Source: a virus. From it: a stretch of DNA of 36,198 nucleotides. The stretch is taken from positions 1 through 36,198 of the IMG/VR virus record IMGVR_UViG_3300042485_001584; one strand, given 5' to 3'. A program made the position numbers and the translations under genes. The notes beneath the pieces are model-generated. The model was not told where the DNA came from. It saw only the letters and a list, made by a program, of their open reading frames with translations, and searched no databases. This document shows, piece by piece, positions 11,570-26,748 of the stretch (within the stretch, counting starts at the first letter, position 1; each line of letters begins with the position of its first letter).

Positions 11570-11737
11570 TTAGTCGTCTTCTCGGTTTCTGATTGGGTAA
11601 GTGATAGCCCAAGCAAGAAGTGTTCCAACAATAGCGTAGCCAACAATGGTTTTGGCACTTCCATCAAGGACTACCCAGGCAATAAACATGCCTAAAAGTG
11701 TCCATAGTTGGTCAATCATGTCCTTAATTATTTTCAA
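11570..11737 (-). CDS. Small membrane protein with TTG start (holin-like)
   Basis: 55 aa. The proposed start is a TTG at 11737 that overlaps the stop of the large repeat protein as TTGA and has AGGAG nine bases upstream. An internal ATG at 11719 lacks a properly spaced site. Two membrane segments are clear: WTLLGMFIAWVVLDG and TIVGYAIVGTLLAWAI, followed by a short charged tail (RNREDD). With the next gene (11248-11529) and the DUF2746-like gene it forms a run of three membrane proteins. Holin or antiholin activity is plausible. Confidence 0.75.
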   Translation of the reverse strand: MKIIKDMIDQLWTLLGMFIAWVVLDGSAKTIVGYAIVGTLLAWAITYPIRNREDD

Positions 11738-14292
11738 GGTTTCCGTCTCCTAACACCTTTACTATCACCTGATGGACCTCCGCCACCAGAACTTCCTCCG
11801 CCACCAGTAGAACCACCAGTAGAACCAGCAGCACCTGCTGCAGCACCAACGGCGTTCATAGCAGCACCTGCTGCAACTACAGTGGCAACAACCATGTCAG
11901 TTGCTTCTTCACGTTCTTCTTCTGACATGTCAGCACCAATGCTGCCCAATGCAAGTAACACTTGACCTGGGTCTTCAAATAGTGCACCAATTAGTTCTGC
12001 GGGATTTTCTAGCACGACAAGTGCAGCAGCAACTTCTGCAGTAATTATGACAGCATTTCCATTTTCGTCAGTTCTAACATCAACAGGAGTTTCTGCTGGT
12101 AAGTCTTTAAACTCAATTCCAGCCTCTTGTATTTGTTCTGATGTAAGAGTTTCTCCTGCTGCAACAGATTCAACCAATGCTTCTGCAACAAGTTCTTTTT
12201 CTGCATTAGTAAGGTTTCCATCTGCAGCAAGTGCTTCTGATAAAGAGTTCACTTCTTCTTTAGAGATTTCGCCATCGGCATTTAAAGCATCAAGAACTTC
12301 ATCTGCATCAGCAGCAGATAACTTGCCATCAGAAAGAAGGTCATCAACAACAGCCTCTACCTCTTCGGCAGTAGTTTCTTCAGCAGGAGGTTCTTCTGCT
12401 GGTGGCTCTTCAGCAGGAGGTTCTTCTGCTGGTGGCTCTTCTGCTGGTGGCTCTTCAGCAGGAGGTTCTTCAGCAGGAGGTTCTTCTGCTGGTGGTTCTT
12501 CAGCAGGAGGTTCTTCTGCTGGTGGCTCTTCAGCAGGAGGTTCTTCTGCTGGTGGCTCTTCTGCTGGTGGCTCTTCAGCAGGAGGTTCTTCAGCAGGAGG
12601 TTCTTCTGCTGGTGGTTCTTCAGCAGGAGGTTCTTCAGCAGGAGGTTCTTCTGCTGGTGGTTCCTCAGCAGGAGGTTCTTCTGCTGGTGGCTCTTCTGCT
12701 GGTGGTTCCTCAGCAGGTGGCTCTTCAGCAGGAGGTTCCTCTGGTGTAGGCTCTGGCTCTGGTTCAGGAGCAGGAGGTTCAGGTGTTACAGGGTTTGGTT
12801 CTTGGGGTGTTGGTGGGGTTGGCTCTGGCTGTGGTTGTGGGAGTGGTTGTGGCTCTGGTTCTGGTGCGGGAGTGGGAGCGGGAGTGGGCGGAACGACTTG
12901 GGACTGCACAACTGAAGCAATTACGGCAACGGCAGAAGCGACTGTGGAAGTAGCGACCTCTGCTTTAACAACTGCTACATCTGCTAACGTACTGGCAGTA
13001 GCAACTGCTACTTCTTTTGTCGATTGGAGAGTGCTTAGTGTTTGAGTTTCTGCTGTTAGTGTGGTCTGAGTTGTTGCAAGTGCTGTCTCTGCTGTTGTTT
13101 TCACTTCTGTAAGAGACGTAAGCACAGCAACTTCAACCGCTTTAACTTCTGTTTTATCAGCGACTACTGCTGTTTGGCTTTCAATTTGAGCCGTTAAAGT
13201 TTCATTGGTTACATTAGTCATTGGCTTTACTGCTTGACCTGCTGCTTCACGAACACCAATACGAGGACCGTTATGCAGTTGTGTTGTGTTTCCCGCAACG
13301 GTTCCTACACCAGTCCATTCCCCTGTTGTTGGATTGACTGTCATCTTCCAATTTACATTTGTAATAGGGCTATTTGGGTCTGCAAATCTATGTAGATTCC
13401 AGTCAACTTCTAGAGTAGTTTCAGTAGTCTTTACTACTGTAGATGAGTTAGGTCCAGCACTTTGAAAGTCGCTACCAAAGACTGAGATATGTGCTCCTGC
13501 TGGAAAATCCCACCAGTTATAGTCGCCATTACCAAAGGTAATAGTTGCTTTTGAAGTCACATAAATTTGGCTGTTTGTTCCTTGACCTTCATAAACTGTG
13601 TTACCCATTTTTATGTCAAAAGGCGTGTTAATTTTTGTAAAGCCGTCGTACATGACTGGAAGCGTTGTTGTAGTAACTGTTGGGGTTTCAGGAGCAACAG
13701 GGGCTACATAGCCTTCGGTTGTATAGGTTTTGCTATCTGAAGGGGTATTCTGAAGAGCGGTCAGTGTAGTTTGAGCATTAGTTAGGTTAGTTGTTGCAAC
13801 TGCTACTACTGCTGTTTGTGACTCAACTGCTGCTGTGGCTGTAGCAACAACTGCGGTTGCAGTAGTAACGTCCTGCGTTACTACGGCTACTACTGCTGTT
13901 TGTGACTCAACTGCTGCTACTGCGGTCACTGCTACGGCTGTTGCTGATTCTGCAGCGACTACAGCAGTCTTTGCTTCTACTACAGCAGTTTGTGCTGTCT
14001 CAACAGCAGCAACTACAGTAGGTTCTGCAACAACAGAAGGAGCAGCAGTTGTGGTTGCTGTATTGAGGGTTGATGCTGCTGCTGTTACTTCTGTGTTAGC
14101 ACTGACTATTTTTTCTTGAGCAACTGCTATAACGGCTGTTGCTGTATCGATTTGAGCAAGAACTGTATCCGATGCAGGAGTAGTTTGAACTACTACAGGT
14201 TCTTCTGCAGAAGCGGTATCAATACCTAAAATGGAGTAGATAAATACAAATAGGGCGGTAGTAAAAAATACCGCGATTGCTCTCTTCAGCAA
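11734..14292 (-). CDS. Large secreted protein with PPAEE repeats, possible cell-surface binding protein
   Basis: 852 aa from a TTG at 14292 with GAGGGAG eight bases upstream. A signal peptide is clear (basic MLKR, then a hydrophobic core, with likely cleavage after TASA near residue 29). Residues of about 45-200 are Ala/Val/Thr-rich degenerate repeats (ESQTAVVAVAT). Residues of about 210-355 form a beta domain with ITFGNGDYNWWDFPAG. Another Ala/Thr-rich helical region follows. A Pro-rich linker leads to 24 consecutive PPAEE units, then an acidic helical region with EF-hand-like phrasing (LSDGKLSAADADEVL, ADGEISKEEV), and a Gly/Ser-rich tail ending in basic residues. The spacer-like repeat and export signal suggest a cell-wall-spanning or surface protein. 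Presence in the virion is possible but unproven. Confidence 0.85.
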   Translation of the reverse strand: MLKRAIAVFFTTALFVFIYSILGIDTASAEEPVVVQTTPASDTVLAQIDTATAVIAVAQEKIVSANTEVTAAASTLNTATTTAAPSVVAEPTVVAAVETAQTAVVEAKTAVVAAESATAVAVTAVAAVESQTAVVAVVTQDVTTATAVVATATAAVESQTAVVAVATTNLTNAQTTLTALQNTPSDSKTYTTEGYVAPVAPETPTVTTTTLPVMYDGFTKINTPFDIKMGNTVYEGQGTNSQIYVTSKATITFGNGDYNWWDFPAGAHISVFGSDFQSAGPNSSTVVKTTETTLEVDWNLHRFADPNSPITNVNWKMTVNPTTGEWTGVGTVAGNTTQLHNGPRIGVREAAGQAVKPMTNVTNETLTAQIESQTAVVADKTEVKAVEVAVLTSLTEVKTTAETALATTQTTLTAETQTLSTLQSTKEVAVATASTLADVAVVKAEVATSTVASAVAVIASVVQSQVVPPTPAPTPAPEPEPQPLPQPQPEPTPPTPQEPNPVTPEPPAPEPEPEPTPEEPPAEEPPAEEPPAEEPPAEEPPAEEPPAEEPPAEEPPAEEPPAEEPPAEEPPAEEPPAEEPPAEEPPAEEPPAEEPPAEEPPAEEPPAEEPPAEEPPAEEPPAEEPPAEEPPAEEPPAEETTAEEVEAVVDDLLSDGKLSAADADEVLDALNADGEISKEEVNSLSEALAADGNLTNAEKELVAEALVESVAAGETLTSEQIQEAGIEFKDLPAETPVDVRTDENGNAVIITAEVAAALVVLENPAELIGALFEDPGQVLLALGSIGADMSEEEREEATDMVVATVVAAGAAMNAVGAAAGAAGSTGGSTGGGGSSGGGGPSGDSKGVRRRKP
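12376..12735 (-). repeat. 15-bp tandem repeat coding PPAEE, 24 units
   Basis: Twenty-four contiguous 15-bp units, all encoding Pro-Pro-Ala-Glu-Glu, in two main codon versions (plus-strand TTCTTCAGCAGGAGG and CTCTTCTGCTGGTGG types). The order of versions repeats with a 120-bp period: the segment starting at 12376 is matched by the one starting at 12496 for about 140 bases. This indicates expansion by slippage or unequal recombination of an eight-unit block after the unit versions diverged. Confidence 0.95.
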
Positions 14293-15597: not shown

Positions 15598-16146
15598 CTA
15601 CTTACCGCATGTAGGACATTTGTCAGAGGTTGGTGCTGCTCCTGTTGCTTTAAACTTAGGACGACCAAATCCAACAATTGAAATCATTACTCCAGCCTTG
15701 TTCTTTTTAAAGGCGCGGAGTTGTTTACAGACTTCTCCGCCATTTCTTTGGCTTCCAGATTTCTTCGATGACGTATTGCCTTCGATACACCAAACAGTCC
15801 CATCTTCATTGTCCTTTACAACTATACCTACGTGAGAAATTCTATCGACACCATCTGAGGGAAAATCAAAATAGACGACATCACCTGGTTCTGGGTCTGC
15901 AACATCTCCATCAATCCATGCACCAGCCTTTTTGAAAGCCTGTGCACCACCTGGAGTGTAAACAGTATTAGGAATCTTTACTCCCGCTTCATTTGCACAC
16001 CAGTTAACAAATGAACCACACCATGGTTGAAAGTTAGCCTTTGTATAAGCACCGTACTTTGTCTCGTTGTCTTTAGGACCTTCAATGGTTCCTAACTCTG
16101 CTTTAGCAACTTCAATAAAACGTGCTGCTGTTCCTTGGTCTGCCAT
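15598..16146 (-). CDS. Endolysin with CHAP domain (peptidoglycan amidase/endopeptidase)
   Basis: 182 aa. A CHAP domain covers about residues 8-155. The catalytic cysteine lies in PWCGSFVNWC (C43), the histidine in ISHVGIV (H105) and the third polar residue in CIEGNTS (E122 or N124). The GDVVYFDF strand before the His region is also typical. A short C-terminal tail ends CPTCGK, which may bind metal with another protein or subunit. There is no signal peptide, so export would depend on a holin. It would cut peptidoglycan at lysis. The start overlaps the stop of the upstream membrane gene as TAATG, linking it to the lysis cassette. Confidence 0.9.
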   Translation of the reverse strand: MADQGTAARFIEVAKAELGTIEGPKDNETKYGAYTKANFQPWCGSFVNWCANEAGVKIPNTVYTPGGAQAFKKAGAWIDGDVADPEPGDVVYFDFPSDGVDRISHVGIVVKDNEDGTVWCIEGNTSSKKSGSQRNGGEVCKQLRAFKKNKAGVMISIVGFGRPKFKATGAAPTSDKCPTCGK

Positions 16147-16307
16147 TACTTCTTCTCCTTACAAGAGCAGTCAACTTTGTTTTTTAGTCGGTAGTGCTGG
16201 TAAGCCATAAGAAGATTCCAGCCAAACATAAGTACCATAAGGAACCACATCGTTTCCATCTCAGTGATTCCAGAACCTGCTGTAATTACTGGGTGGTCGT
16301 GGTTCAT
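16146..16307 (-). CDS. Small single-pass membrane protein in lysis cassette
   Basis: 53 aa. It starts ATGA-overlapped with the previous gene (ATG at 16307, upstream TGA at 16304-16306) and ends TAATG-overlapped with the endolysin start. One membrane helix, WFLMVLMFGWNLLMAY, is followed by a basic tail with CSCKEKK. The tight coupling on both sides and position just before the endolysin make it a holin candidate, although single-pass holins are usually a little longer. Confidence 0.78.
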   Translation of the reverse strand: MNHDHPVITAGSGITEMETMWFLMVLMFGWNLLMAYQHYRLKNKVDCSCKEKK

Positions 16308-16714
16308 TCTTTATCCCAGTCTGTGTCAATTGGTTGTTCTTCTGGCATTGCACCAGATGGCTTTGCTGCAAGACGTGCTGCTGTAGCATCAATCTCGGCT
16401 TCTAATTTTTTGTCTGCTTGAGTGTTCTTAGCATCCATCTCTTTGTTATCTAACTGTGCTTTCATAATGTCTTTAGCACCAGATGAACCAATCAAGATAC
16501 CTGCAAGGGTTCCTGTAATAAATGTAGCGATGCTTCCTAGAACATTAAAGAACATTTTGTCATTCTCTGACTGTGCTCCAATTGGCTGTGACACAAACAA
16601 AAGGCCATAAAGAATACCTAGTGATGTGCATAGAAGAATTGTTCCTAGTGTGATTCCTAGAATAAACTTTAAGCGAGCATCTAGGTCTTGTGGTGATAAG
16701 CGTTCTTTACTCAT
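16304..16714 (-). CDS. Two-pass membrane protein with coiled-coil tail, lysis cassette
   Basis: 136 aa. Two hydrophobic helices are evident: LGTILLCTSLGILYGLLFV (about 22-40) and a second around SIATFITGTLAGILIGSSG (about 60-78). A C-terminal charged helix (MKAQLDNKEMDAKNTQADKK) follows and then an acidic tail. It overlaps both neighbours. Topology and context (lipoprotein, this gene, small membrane protein, endolysin) fit a lysis-associated membrane protein. Holin or membrane-anchor function is inferred. Confidence 0.78.
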   Translation of the reverse strand: MSKERLSPQDLDARLKFILGITLGTILLCTSLGILYGLLFVSQPIGAQSENDKMFFNVLGSIATFITGTLAGILIGSSGAKDIMKAQLDNKEMDAKNTQADKKLEAEIDATAARLAAKPSGAMPEEQPIDTDWDKE

Positions 16715-16943
16715 TTGGTGTTCCTTCTGGATTTACAGTAGCGGTAGTTCCGTCTGATGTTTTAACTAAGTCTACAGGACAAGTTTGTGTAGCGGAGCAA
16801 ATCGGTGGTTTACACTCTGCTATTTCCCAGTTTTTTGGGTCTTGGCAAGGGTATCTGAAGAATCCTTGGTAGCCACAACTAGTTAAAGACAAAGAGAGTA
16901 ACGCTGCTAAAGAAAGAGCAGTTAGGGTCTTTAAACTTTTCAC
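16707..16943 (-). CDS. Small Cys-containing lipoprotein
   Basis: 78 aa. The signal sequence MKSLKTLTALSLAALLSLSL is followed by lipobox LTSC, with C23 the lipidation site. The mature part has several further cysteines (YPCQD, AECKPP, ICSATQTCPV), which may form disulphides outside the cell. It heads the lysis-cassette gene order (lipoprotein, two membrane proteins, endolysin). In a Gram-negative host such a protein might act as an outer spanin. In the Gram-positive host I favour, it would be a surface-anchored accessory or exclusion protein. Confidence 0.8.
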   Translation of the reverse strand: MKSLKTLTALSLAALLSLSLTSCGYQGFFRYPCQDPKNWEIAECKPPICSATQTCPVDLVKTSDGTTATVNPEGTPNE

Positions 16944-16955
16944 GTTAGTTCCTAT

Positions 16956-17285
16956 CTATACGTATTTAACAGGGCTGCCAGATTCTGCTGCACCGCGTCG
17001 TAGTTGTGATTGGTGCTTTGAGGTTGTTCTGGAATACTTTGTGTTTGGAATTACCCAACCTTGAGAATGACTGTGTACACCAATAGGTGTGTTGTAAGAA
17101 CTAACAACGTAGTTAATATCAGGTAACTTACTAATAGTTTCTCGCTGGTCTTTAGGAAGTTCACCAAAAATCATAGAGTCTGCGGGTCCTGAATGACCAC
17201 GAGCAGATAGTGCACCGTGGCTTACAAAAGCCTCACGACGAGATATAGGTCCAGATGCTTCTCTGGTAGATACTTTTTTTGCCAT
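16956..17285 (-). CDS. Hypothetical conserved phage protein
   Basis: 109 aa. The second half contains YVVSSYNTPIGVHSHSQGWV and PNTKYSRTTSKHQSQLRRG. The pattern S-Y-x-T-P-I-G, G-W-V-I-P-x-x-K-Y-S-x-T-T-S-x-H-Q recurs in small phage proteins of unknown function, where it appears to form a short beta domain that ends in a helix. The N-terminal 50 residues are basic and flexible. It lies directly downstream of the Ntn-hydrolase gene, with 18 bases between them. Confidence 0.75.
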   Translation of the reverse strand: MAKKVSTREASGPISRREAFVSHGALSARGHSGPADSMIFGELPKDQRETISKLPDINYVVSSYNTPIGVHSHSQGWVIPNTKYSRTTSKHQSQLRRGAAESGSPVKYV

Positions 17286-17303: not shown

Positions 17304-17846
17304 TTAGATGTATTTGTACTGCTCTTTCTTTTGAAAAGGCCCAGAAGTCCAAGCATCTTGGGTTTCGGCAATTTTCATAGCCTTAAGAGGAGCAGCACCT
17401 GCTGAGAGTGCCCCAATTGCATACTTAGCACCATTTCCAACTCCGTAGAGACCATCGCTACGGATTCCCACTGAGAGGTCATCTTCTATCGCAAAGAGTG
17501 TTCCACCTACAGCAATTAAGAATTGAAAACGGTATTCACCATCGCCCTCTTCTTCAAACTTATAACCATTGTCTATTAAGCAAGTGCGTAAAGAAGGAAC
17601 AACCTTTGCAATCATAAAATGATAGAGGTCTTTAACATCTCGCTCTGTAGGAGACGGTGGGTTCCAAATATGTTGTGCTACATCGCAAGGAAAGGCTTCT
17701 CCTGCTCCTGCAATTAAAAAGTCACCGCGTCGAGAAATTTTCGACATCTGTGGGTGAGTAAACATTCGCCCTTGACCGTCTGTGGTTTGTGCATCTGCAT
17801 AGATAACGCATTTATCTTTTTGCTGTAAACCAATTATCGTTGTCAC
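17304..17846 (-). CDS. Proteasome beta/HslV-like N-terminal threonine hydrolase
   Basis: 180 aa from a GTG at 17846, preceded by AAGGA with an 8-base spacer. The frame runs on to an ATG at 17909, but that would place a hairpin inside the coding region and hide the nucleophile. From the GTG the protein begins (M)TTIIGLQ, as in HslV (MTTIV...), so removal of Met exposes catalytic Thr1. Numbering from that Thr, the family residues are present: D17 in YADAQTTDG, K35 in QMSKISRRG, the GxGNGAKYAIGAL strand (about 134-146) with Asn137 where proteasomes have Ser129, and QDAWTSGPF with D163. The fold is that of self-compartmentalising peptidases. No HslU, ClpX or Mpa-like partner is adjacent; the MoxR ATPase on the other arm is the only AAA+ protein seen. 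The substrate is unknown. Confidence 0.88.
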   Translation of the reverse strand: MTTIIGLQQKDKCVIYADAQTTDGQGRMFTHPQMSKISRRGDFLIAGAGEAFPCDVAQHIWNPPSPTERDVKDLYHFMIAKVVPSLRTCLIDNGYKFEEEGDGEYRFQFLIAVGGTLFAIEDDLSVGIRSDGLYGVGNGAKYAIGALSAGAAPLKAMKIAETQDAWTSGPFQKKEQYKYI

Positions 17847-17871
17847 AGGCGTTATCCTTAATATTGGGGTA

Positions 17872-17904: not shown

Positions 17905-17926
17905 GACAATTAAAGGGTGGTTGGCA

Positions 17927-23307: not shown

Positions 23308-24708
23308 ATGACTACAACAACAATCACAACTGGTTATGCAGTATTAGTTACATCGCAAACAACTGAACTCGGTTATCTTCGACAACAACTAGTTGTTGCT
23401 GACATCGAACGCGGTGTAAAAGTTTGGACACGTGTTACTAACGGCGGTCGTGGTGTATCAAACGCATGGACTGATTCAACTTACGATTCATTCACTACTA
23501 ATAAGTTTGGTAATGAATTAGTTGTTGGTTCTGTTCTATCTTCACCACTTACACCAACTGACATCAAGGACGTGTTTACTGATAACTCTGCATTCAACAT
23601 GATTCAGAAGTTAACAAAACAATTCGCACTACGCGATAAAACACTTACTGGTCAATTACTAAGTGACGTTGTTGCAGACGTTGATACTTGCTTAGCAACT
23701 GACATCAATTCGCTTGTGAAGTTTCGTAGTGACGGTCGTGCAGATAAAACTGCAACTACAAACTACAAGCAAATCAACATCGCTTCTGCACCAATTAAAA
23801 CTGCTCCTGTTGCTCCTGTTGCAACTGTTGCTGTTCGTGATGACATTCCACTTGAAATTAAAAACAAGTATGTGCCTTCACCAACTGACCCTGAAGTTGC
23901 GAACTACATTCAACGCACATTCGACGGTATAAAAGAGTTTGACATCTTCGAACGTGCTTTGATTAATAAACAAAACGTATTGTTAGAAGGTCATGCTGGA
24001 ACTGGTAAAACAACTTCCGCAAAAGCATTCGCTTCTTCAAAAGGTTTACCGTTCTATGCAATCGGCATGAACCTTGCAAGTGAACCTTCTGATTACAAAG
24101 GACAACTTGAACCGCAAGCAGACGGCACACTTAAGTTTGTTTACGGTGAGTTAGCACTCGCGTTTAAATACGGTGGTGTTGTTCTTCTTGATGAACTTTC
24201 ATTCATTAAAGAAGGTTGCTCTGCTGACATGCACAATGCACTTGATAATCTGCGACAGATTACTTTGCGTGGCAACGACAATGAAGTTATTCAAGGTCAT
24301 GATGAACTTCTTATCATCGGTGCATACAACGCAGGTTATCGCGGAACTCGTAAATTAAATGAGGCGTTTGCAGATAGATTCACAACTCAATTAGTTTACG
24401 AATACGACTCGACTATTGAAAAGAAAATCATTAAGTCAAAGTCGTTACTGGAACTTGCAACGCAAATGCGTGCAGAGTCTGTTCGTGGAGAGTATGAGAC
24501 ACCAATCAGTCTCAGACTTCTTAAGGGCTTTCAGTATCACGTAATCAATTACAACTTCGACTTCGCTGTTCGTTGCTTTGTTAATCACTTCAACGAAGAA
24601 GAGCGTTCAAGCGTTAAGTTGTTGTTGGAGGCTTACAGCACCAACATCGCAGAAGAGTATGAAGTTGCAATCAATACTCCTAACGTTGACAAGGGTGCAG
24701 ATAATTAA
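23308..24708 (+). CDS. MoxR/CobS-like AAA+ ATPase
   Basis: 466 aa. A non-conserved N-terminal domain (1-200) with Thr/Val-rich and helical parts precedes the AAA+ core. Walker A GHAGTGKT (228-235), Walker B VVLLDE (291-296) and sensor 1 at IIGAYNAG (N341) are all present, with FADRF near 354-358 as a likely arginine-finger region. The arrangement after Walker A (NLASEPSDYKGQ) is typical of MoxR, CbbQ and CobS ATPases, which work as hexameric chaperones with a VWA-domain partner. That partner is the next gene. Their role would be metal insertion or remodelling of a target complex; the target here is unknown. A hairpin overlaps the 3' end. Confidence 0.88.
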   Translation: MTTTTITTGYAVLVTSQTTELGYLRQQLVVADIERGVKVWTRVTNGGRGVSNAWTDSTYDSFTTNKFGNELVVGSVLSSPLTPTDIKDVFTDNSAFNMIQKLTKQFALRDKTLTGQLLSDVVADVDTCLATDINSLVKFRSDGRADKTATTNYKQINIASAPIKTAPVAPVATVAVRDDIPLEIKNKYVPSPTDPEVANYIQRTFDGIKEFDIFERALINKQNVLLEGHAGTGKTTSAKAFASSKGLPFYAIGMNLASEPSDYKGQLEPQADGTLKFVYGELALAFKYGGVVLLDELSFIKEGCSADMHNALDNLRQITLRGNDNEVIQGHDELLIIGAYNAGYRGTRKLNEAFADRFTTQLVYEYDSTIEKKIIKSKSLLELATQMRAESVRGEYETPISLRLLKGFQYHVINYNFDFAVRCFVNHFNEEERSSVKLLLEAYSTNIAEEYEVAINTPNVDKGADN

Positions 24709-24771: not shown

Positions 24772-26748
24772 ATGCAACAACTAACAACACAAGAACAACA
24801 GAACGAAAAGCGCGATAGATTACTTCGATTAGCACAAGTGTTTCAACGTGCTAATTCTGTTATTGCACTTCGTCCAATTAAAGTGCACATCGTCAATCAA
24901 CCTGACGGTGCTCCTGCTTGGTCGGGTGCTAACGACGTATGGTTCAACGAAGCAAAGATTAATGACAAGTTTGATACAGAGACTTTGTTATCAATCCAAG
25001 GCTTGGACTTTCACGAGTTAGCACACGTTCGTTACACACCACGTAACGGTTCTGACATCTGCTTATGGGTAATTGAAAACAATTACTGGAAAGCATTCAA
25101 TGCGTTAGAAGACCAACGTATCGAAACACTTATGGTTGGCAGATTCCCTTCAACTGTTAATTGGTTGACTGCAACTGTTGCACAATTCATTCTTAATACT
25201 CCTGAAGCAATCGAGAATGCGTATCCGTTATTACGCGGTCGCAGATACTTGCCTCTTGAGATTCGTCAACTTGCACGCAAGCACTATGCAAAACAAGAAA
25301 ACATAGTTGCACTTGGTGAAGTAATTGATGAATACCGTTTGCTGTTATTCCCTGACGATACAGAACGTGCAAAAGAATTAATTGCACGATTCGCAGAATT
25401 AATTCAGGGCGATAATCTTGCAGACCCAAACGGTCATGAAGCGAGACCATTCCAAGGTCATGAGTCTTCTGATTCACGTCCTGCACCAAAGCGTGAACAA
25501 GAGCGTGACCGTAAGAATGCAGAGAAGCAAGAAAAAGAATTAGATAAAGAAGATACACAATCTTCTTCTGCTGATTCTGATGATGATTCAGATTCTGATG
25601 ATGATTCAGATTCAGATTCAGATTCACAATCTAACTCTTCTTCAGATAACTTTGCAGACCCAAACGATAAAGGTGGTAATGGTGGTAATGATTCTGATGA
25701 TGAATTAGATTCAGATGATGATTCAGATTCAAAAGAAGATTCCGATTCTTCTTCTGACTTTGGTGACGTAACTGTTGCTGAAGATTCTGATGATGATTCA
25801 GAGTCTGATGATTCTTATGAAGCAGATAACTTAAGCCGTCATGCTGGTGCTGGTGGTAAAAGTAAAACTGCAAACTCTCAAGAAGTTACAGACACCATGG
25901 AAGAGATTATCCAATCAGTTACTGAAGAACTTATGGATAATCTAAATAAGTTATCAATGCAGGTTGTTGGTAAACCTCTTATGGGAACTGTTAATGCAGA
26001 GTCGGTATCACGTGCTGATTACCGTTCTGTATCTGCAACTGCAGACTTAGTAATGGTGCAACGTTCGTTTGCTCGTGAGTTAGAAAGACTCAAAGCAAAC
26101 TACGACCCTTCATGGTTAACTGAGCAACGAAGTGGAAAGTTAAATGCCAATCGTTACATGCAAGGTGCAAGTGTTCGCACTTTGTTTAACAAGTGGCAAA
26201 GCGGTCGCGATGACGTAACTGCAATCGAAGCAGTTATTCTTCTTGACCGTTCTTCTTCAATGCAAGGTCACAATGCAAAAGAAGCATACAAAAGTTTGTG
26301 GGCTATCAAACGTTCTTTAGACAAAGTGCAGGCACGCACAACTGTTTACACGTTTGATTCACATACTCACTTACTTTATTCTGCAGATGAAAAAGCAGAT
26401 ACAACAGTAAGAGATTCAGGTGCAAGTGGAACAACACAACCTGAAGTTGCAATCTTAAATGCACAAAACATTCTTGCTACTACAGACAAGCCAATCCGCA
26501 TTCTCTTCATGATTACTGACGGTGCATGGGGCGGAGATAAAGCGGAAGAGTCTGTAAGAAGAATGAAAGAAGCAGGTGTTCTCACTTGCCAAGCACTTCT
26601 CTATCCTAATGAAGTTTCGAATGAAGGATTAGAAAGGTGCAGACATAACTTTGAGATAATCAAACGAATTGGTGAAGCCAAAGACATCTTGTCTCTTGGT
26701 CAATCACTAGTGCGAACTGCAATCGCACGTCGTTTGGTATCTCAATGA
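24772..26748 (+). CDS. CobT-like protein with HExxH motif and VWA domain
   Basis: 658 aa. Residues of about 1-250 are a helical domain with FHELAHVRYTP (HELAH, 81-85), a zincin-type HExxH that may bind zinc. Residues of about 261-350 are an extremely acidic Asp/Ser-rich stretch (DSDDDSDSDDD). The C-terminal third is a von Willebrand A domain with MIDAS DRSSS (D492, S494, S496), a later TTQPEVAI segment and MITDGAWGG. This resembles CobT and other VWA partners of MoxR-type ATPases, here encoded directly upstream. Together they would form a metal-dependent remodelling or chelatase-like machine. There are no cobalamin-synthesis genes nearby, so cobalt chelation is not implied. The HELAH motif may equally be structural. 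Confidence 0.88.
   Translation: MQQLTTQEQQNEKRDRLLRLAQVFQRANSVIALRPIKVHIVNQPDGAPAWSGANDVWFNEAKINDKFDTETLLSIQGLDFHELAHVRYTPRNGSDICLWVIENNYWKAFNALEDQRIETLMVGRFPSTVNWLTATVAQFILNTPEAIENAYPLLRGRRYLPLEIRQLARKHYAKQENIVALGEVIDEYRLLLFPDDTERAKELIARFAELIQGDNLADPNGHEARPFQGHESSDSRPAPKREQERDRKNAEKQEKELDKEDTQSSSADSDDDSDSDDDSDSDSDSQSNSSSDNFADPNDKGGNGGNDSDDELDSDDDSDSKEDSDSSSDFGDVTVAEDSDDDSESDDSYEADNLSRHAGAGGKSKTANSQEVTDTMEEIIQSVTEELMDNLNKLSMQVVGKPLMGTVNAESVSRADYRSVSATADLVMVQRSFARELERLKANYDPSWLTEQRSGKLNANRYMQGASVRTLFNKWQSGRDDVTAIEAVILLDRSSSMQGHNAKEAYKSLWAIKRSLDKVQARTTVYTFDSHTHLLYSADEKADTTVRDSGASGTTQPEVAILNAQNILATTDKPIRILFMITDGAWGGDKAEESVRRMKEAGVLTCQALLYPNEVSNEGLERCRHNFEIIKRIGEAKDILSLGQSLVRTAIARRLVSQ

Follow-up and report, generated by a model that had tools for sequence, protein, structure and literature searches.

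Why should a phage carry a relative of the proteasome and HslV peptidases, and what would such an enzyme do during infection? The question is raised by a gene for a 180-aa protein on a viral contig of 36,198 nucleotides (the whole stretch of DNA analysed, hereafter the window), which the original prediction read from sequence as a proteasome/HslV-type hydrolase with its nucleophile Thr at position 2. The gene sits in the lysis cassette, about 1.3 kb or less from a CHAP endolysin gene. The features that matter here are as follows.

17304–17846 (−): HslV/proteasome-beta-like Thr hydrolase gene, 180 aa, GTG start, (M)TTIIG
17855–17859 (−): Shine-Dalgarno-like AAGGA, 8 nt before the GTG at 17846, read directly
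16956–17285 (−): 109-aa protein of unknown function (PHROG 32689), same-strand downstream neighbour
16707–16943 (−): 78-aa lipoprotein-like protein with an LTSC motif, lysis cassette
16304–16714 (−): 136-aa membrane-type protein, putative holin (by position only)
15598–16146 (−): CHAP endolysin (Pfam CHAP, 5.5e-12; PHROG endolysin, 9e-27)
23308–24708 (+): CobS-like AAA+ ATPase
24772–26748 (+): 658-aa CobT-like protein (a pair with CobS), linkers acidic and rich in Ser/Asp, C-terminal part vWA-like

The window also has terminase, portal, coiled-coil scaffold-like, MCP and integrase genes. Contigs with the same portal reach 89–100 kb, so the window is probably a fragment.

The frame, strand and coordinates of the gene are as predicted, and it is intact. 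It begins with the codons GTG-ACA-ACG, and the AAGGA precedes the GTG with the expected spacing (8 nt); the in-frame start further upstream at 17909, which had been given as an ATG, is a TTG. Many relatives have purine-rich stretches like this one ahead of the position where their alignment starts. Across 80 IMG/VR loci together with phage records, the alignment begins with Met/Val-Thr-Thr, or in some with Thr-Cys, and the start codon is mostly ATG. The open stretch upstream of the Thr start in these relatives is mostly 0–10 codons. The upstream frame is thus nearly always blocked, which rules out a propeptide. The concern that standard start calling would often hide the Thr is not borne out, because public records of relatives (DSL-LC01, D'Alembert, Hum25) annotate the peptidase from this same Met/TTG-Thr start. 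In-frame stops seen in the peptidase of two contigs (G048, G051) are the normal stop at the C-terminus.

The catalytic residues are strongly conserved. Thr occupies position 2 in 202/202 aligned relatives, a count that is partly built in because each row was begun at whichever Met/Val/Leu-Thr start lay closest to where the profile starts; this rule set aside two of 204 matches (E. coli HslV and one rhizobial protein), although the database entries of both likewise open with Met-Thr. Position 17 holds Asp in 199 rows and Glu in three, and 201 rows retain the catalytic Lys, with Arg in the remaining one, so that the proposed match of Thr, Asp17 and Lys35 to catalytic positions holds, with no loss seen. 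The Lys of the window protein is Lys35 (Lys36 counting Met), equivalent to Lys33 in the catalytic set Thr1/Asp17/Lys33, and the Thr/Asp/Lys set is invariant in a diverse alignment. The Asn noted in place of the Ser of the GSG motif is present and is a minor tolerated variant, the GxGNG position being Ser in 166 relatives, Asn in 11, Thr in 10, Ala in six and Cys in three. Asp163, which had also been aligned with a catalytic position, is present in the window protein but is not conserved (D 30, T 16, S 16 and N 13 among 84 dereplicated rows). Pairwise dN/dS between the window version and near relatives is 0.025–0.075 (up to 0.08 rounded), so the window peptidase is under strong purifying selection.

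Family assignment and predicted fold agree. The window protein matches PHROG 1040 (“peptidase HslV family”) with E 5.6e-24 and falls below the Pfam Proteasome cut-off (E 0.086, 12.9 bits versus 22.4), a model that matches 26/31 relatives at E ≤0.01. TIGR03692, the NCBIfam HslV equivalog, also matches 26/31 relatives at E ≤0.01, and at that E the window protein is not among its matches. A profile built from the relatives hits BPH (5ovu) best, with E 3e-8, and then HslV and proteasome beta. The AlphaFold monomer (pLDDT 91.8, pTM 0.87) has helices at 51–60, 68–72 and 74–92 that precede a loop, and its best PDB chains are both BPH (VIA Z 18.0 and 17.6), followed at about 16–17 by HslV, proteasome beta and Anbu, where rows within 1 Z count as tied. 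All 1000 Foldseek-ranked PDB chains have Z ≥8, and the model shows the proteasome-beta fold (core sheets, H1–H4). The predicted proteasome/HslV-type fold is therefore upheld, and another fold was not seen. Many viral relatives occur in BFVD, the best of which is named “HslV ATP-dependent protease”; exact-pattern scans of a bacterial genome collection found no relatives of the subfamily. A chance ORF is rejected, because the PHROG and BPH profile matches, the dN/dS values and the structural match lie far above chance. The phage gene is genuine and intact, and its product is related to the proteasome and HslV peptidases.

Homologues of HslV and the proteasome have been catalogued in phages before (PHROG 1040; PPH, AAH, CPH). 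Fuchs, Alva and Lupas (2021; PMC8665760) described PPH, AAH and CPH as phage-borne proteasome homologues without AAA+ partners, without informative gene context and with function not known. In their survey, propeptides were confined to proteasome beta and HslV, and AAH turned up in Actinobacteria but in no phage specific to them (PMC8665760). Like the window protein, these are compact group I proteins in phages with no propeptide and no AAA+ partner found. PPH is about 140 aa and lacks helix H2, whereas the window protein has 180 aa and an H2 helix and is therefore not a PPH. Rhizobial plasmid copies, at 31% identity, group with part of the phage peptidase family and are possibly AAH. These genes, on Rhizobium, Mesorhizobium and Sinorhizobium plasmids (L092, L093, L094), are annotated as hypothetical and start with MTCIVGL; one adjoins nif genes.

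The closest structure is BPH, the beta-proteobacterial proteasome homologue (5OVS, 5OVT, 5OVU; Z 18 over 164 aligned residues), which is also the best profile match. BPH and the phage protein share an N-terminal Thr without propeptide and acidic residues in the loop after H2, and BPH is without a known cognate unfoldase. Identity is about 20–25%, however, and BPH is a double heptamer, whereas the window protein is phage-encoded and known from a monomer model. HslV (ClpQ) shares the fold (Z ~16), the (M)TT start, Thr1/Asp17/Lys33, the GSG motif and a [FY]T motif near the C-terminus, but sequence identity is low, and the HslV name in PHROG rests on homology only. Across 26 phage records, most of which may be incomplete, no gene for HslU or another AAA_2 unfoldase scored above the cut-off; a host unfoldase could still serve as partner. 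The CobS-like ATPase was considered as a general phage AAA+ partner and rejected; it occurs in only 3/26 records, all close to the window.

The gene is widespread among related phages. It is found in 20/22 large contigs picked for a window-like endolysin (one of the 20 has two), although these contigs come from related phages and such prevalence counts are therefore not independent. WhiB is a mark of actinophages (PMC6802176, PMC10202952). It occurs in 20/22 of the large contigs with a window-like endolysin and in 16/26 relatives' records; the 36-kb window lacks it, and a longer relative (G002) has it. Strain LanE-43 of ‘Ca. Planktophila’ was the isolation host of phages E7 and F5 (PMC10202952), and the paper that describes them names genes for host-protein degradation only in general terms. 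We infer that the window phage infects freshwater Actinobacteria. A limited literature search found no report of a proteasome in Nanopelagicales. New here are the commonness of the peptidase in freshwater actinophages and its slot-wise exchange, neither of which was found in a limited literature search.

The gene occupies five context classes, namely behind the portal gene, in the lysis cassette, behind a histone-deacetylase-like (HDAC-like) amidohydrolase, overlapping a Toprim primase and next to SSB. E7 and F5 belong to the portal-slot group, and in other isolates genes for thymidylate synthase, RNR or PhoH lie near it. Scanning with the portal of E7 yielded 76 new loci, 71 of them long enough to show the next gene. 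In 62 of these 71 the gene immediately behind the portal is the peptidase, and in the other nine the portal gene is joined directly to the following gene. A 93-kb contig (G036) was left out as an absence since it ends at the corresponding place. No copy was found elsewhere in the nine peptidase-less contigs (up to 39.9 kb, possibly incomplete), and the peptidase is therefore accessory at the portal slot.

Versions at this slot are exchanged. Four peptidase clades occur there (85, 14, 2 and 2 loci), with a between-clade median identity of 29–40%, versus 85–88% for the portals of the same groups. Two loci (L113 and L124) share 93% identity in terminase and 95% in portal but 35% in peptidase. On the portal tree, allele state changes at least 10 times and absence accounts for at least three changes; the tree was made by a quick method, several forks are weakly supported and recombination within portals could inflate the count. 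Deeply different peptidase versions thus replace one another at one fixed genome position (xenologous replacement).

These findings point, with a probability of roughly 60%, to an accessory, unfoldase-independent Thr peptidase, probably BPH-like, that acts on proteins of the host or the phage while freshwater Actinobacteria are being infected. The initiator Met would be taken off by the deformylase and methionine aminopeptidase of the host, exposing Thr1, with no propeptide involved; removal is expected from the rule for Met-Thr, and the start and the Thr are shown by conservation. The subunits most likely form an HslV/BPH-like ring, judging from the monomer fold, although connectase has this core too and is a monomer (PMC8665760). 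Such a ring could accept substrates that are unfolded or short and would need no unfoldase of the phage's own, as the fold, the absence of AAA_2 in relatives and the moderately acidic loop suggest. Most freshwater actinophage contigs examined hold one copy among late genes, in the lysis cassette or after the portal, and expression is probably late; in other phages the gene is placed in early/nucleotide modules. The gene is kept by selection and swapped for divergent versions at fixed sites, and its most likely role would be phage-controlled proteolysis whose target differs from host to host; an obligatory part in capsid maturation is the less likely reading.

Capsid maturation has to be weighed because the original prediction argued from a missing prohead protease to processing of virion proteins. 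A virion-morphogenesis (prohead) protease that cleaves scaffold or internal proteins is unlikely. The slot behind the portal is the usual place of the head maturation protease, the terminase–portal–peptidase order recurs in the 62/71 testable loci and in cultured phage E7, and no S78 or ClpP-type prohead protease exceeded the cut-off in 26 records. However, prohead proteases of the S78, ClpP and T4 gp21 types are unrelated to the phage protein in fold and chemistry and have in common with it the slot behind the portal in one group of relatives. The nine relatives without the gene after the portal have no copy elsewhere in contigs of up to 40 kb, the portal-adjacent gene being cleanly dispensable, and other phages have theirs near lysis, HDAC, primase or SSB genes. 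The window itself has a portal–scaffold–MCP arrangement with its own coiled-coil scaffold between portal and MCP, and scaffold-type heads often need no protease. Moreover, peptidase versions that are 29–40% identical serve portals that are about 86% identical. Virion processing is thus not supported as the reason for the gene.

Less probable again is that the protein helps to lyse the host or to break down the cell late in infection, for example through degradation of a lysis regulator. Such a role would explain the repeated place of the gene next to holin and endolysin. In the window, its near relatives and a second clade (L031, L033, L060) the gene is at most about 1.3 kb from the CHAP endolysin, and in one contig (G047) it comes directly after the endolysin. 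Among 80 loci fetched by endolysin similarity, 46 have a peptidase, mostly divergent, within 6 kb. Portal-slot phages such as E7, however, have the peptidase far from the endolysin, the distance is about 28 kb in some contigs, and the contigs are related, so that the association may be inherited.

The presence of 20S proteasomes in many Actinobacteria counts for the least probable rival, in which the protein is a proteasome-like non-peptidase, working either as a ligase or amidase, like connectase, or as a subunit that re-targets or poisons the host proteasome. The family is functionally diverse, connectase having a proteasome core and yet being a monomeric ligase (PMC8665760), but the Thr/Asp/Lys set of the phage protein is complete, its predicted secondary structure lacks the two-helix S3/S4 insertion of connectase, and its closest fold, BPH, was solved with epoxomicin bound.

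An accessory Thr peptidase leaves room for a broader and more tentative idea, that freshwater actinophages carry near-standard, lineage-swapped proteasome-like peptidases, either with a host-factor target that varies among strains or with versions that avoid mixed rings. If this is true, a phage would usually carry one copy in a fixed late-gene slot, and the versions swapped there would share only 29–40% identity, against about 85% or above for neighbouring genes. Exchange would then fit a target that is a host factor (defence or regulator) differing among host strains; alternatively, versions may differ to avoid mixed, poisoned rings in co-infection. Culturable ‘Ca. Planktophila’ phages offer a slot behind the portal with natural presence, absence and swapped versions, which opens the function of phage proteasome homologues to testing, and nature offers matched phages with and without the peptidase gene. 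The known range of proteasome-like genes also comes to include phages of a bacterial order that ranks among the most abundant in fresh water.

The neighbourhoods of the gene contain other features. The HDAC-like amidohydrolase (about 298 aa) lies directly upstream of the peptidase in ten loci (L016, L024, L025, L026, L030, L050, L061, L069, L073, L076). In phage DSL-LC01 (L084 8001–8951) WhiB immediately follows the peptidase, whereas large freshwater phages (L257 3391–5426 and similar loci) have WhiB about 1 kb ahead of the peptidase. One 134-kb contig (G057, of L259) has two divergent HslV-like genes, at 78510–79064 and 114425–114940. Between the lysis and packaging genes of the window, an 852-aa proline-rich, extensin-like protein is encoded at 11734–14292 (−), and similar sequence occurs in 50 of the 80 endolysin loci.
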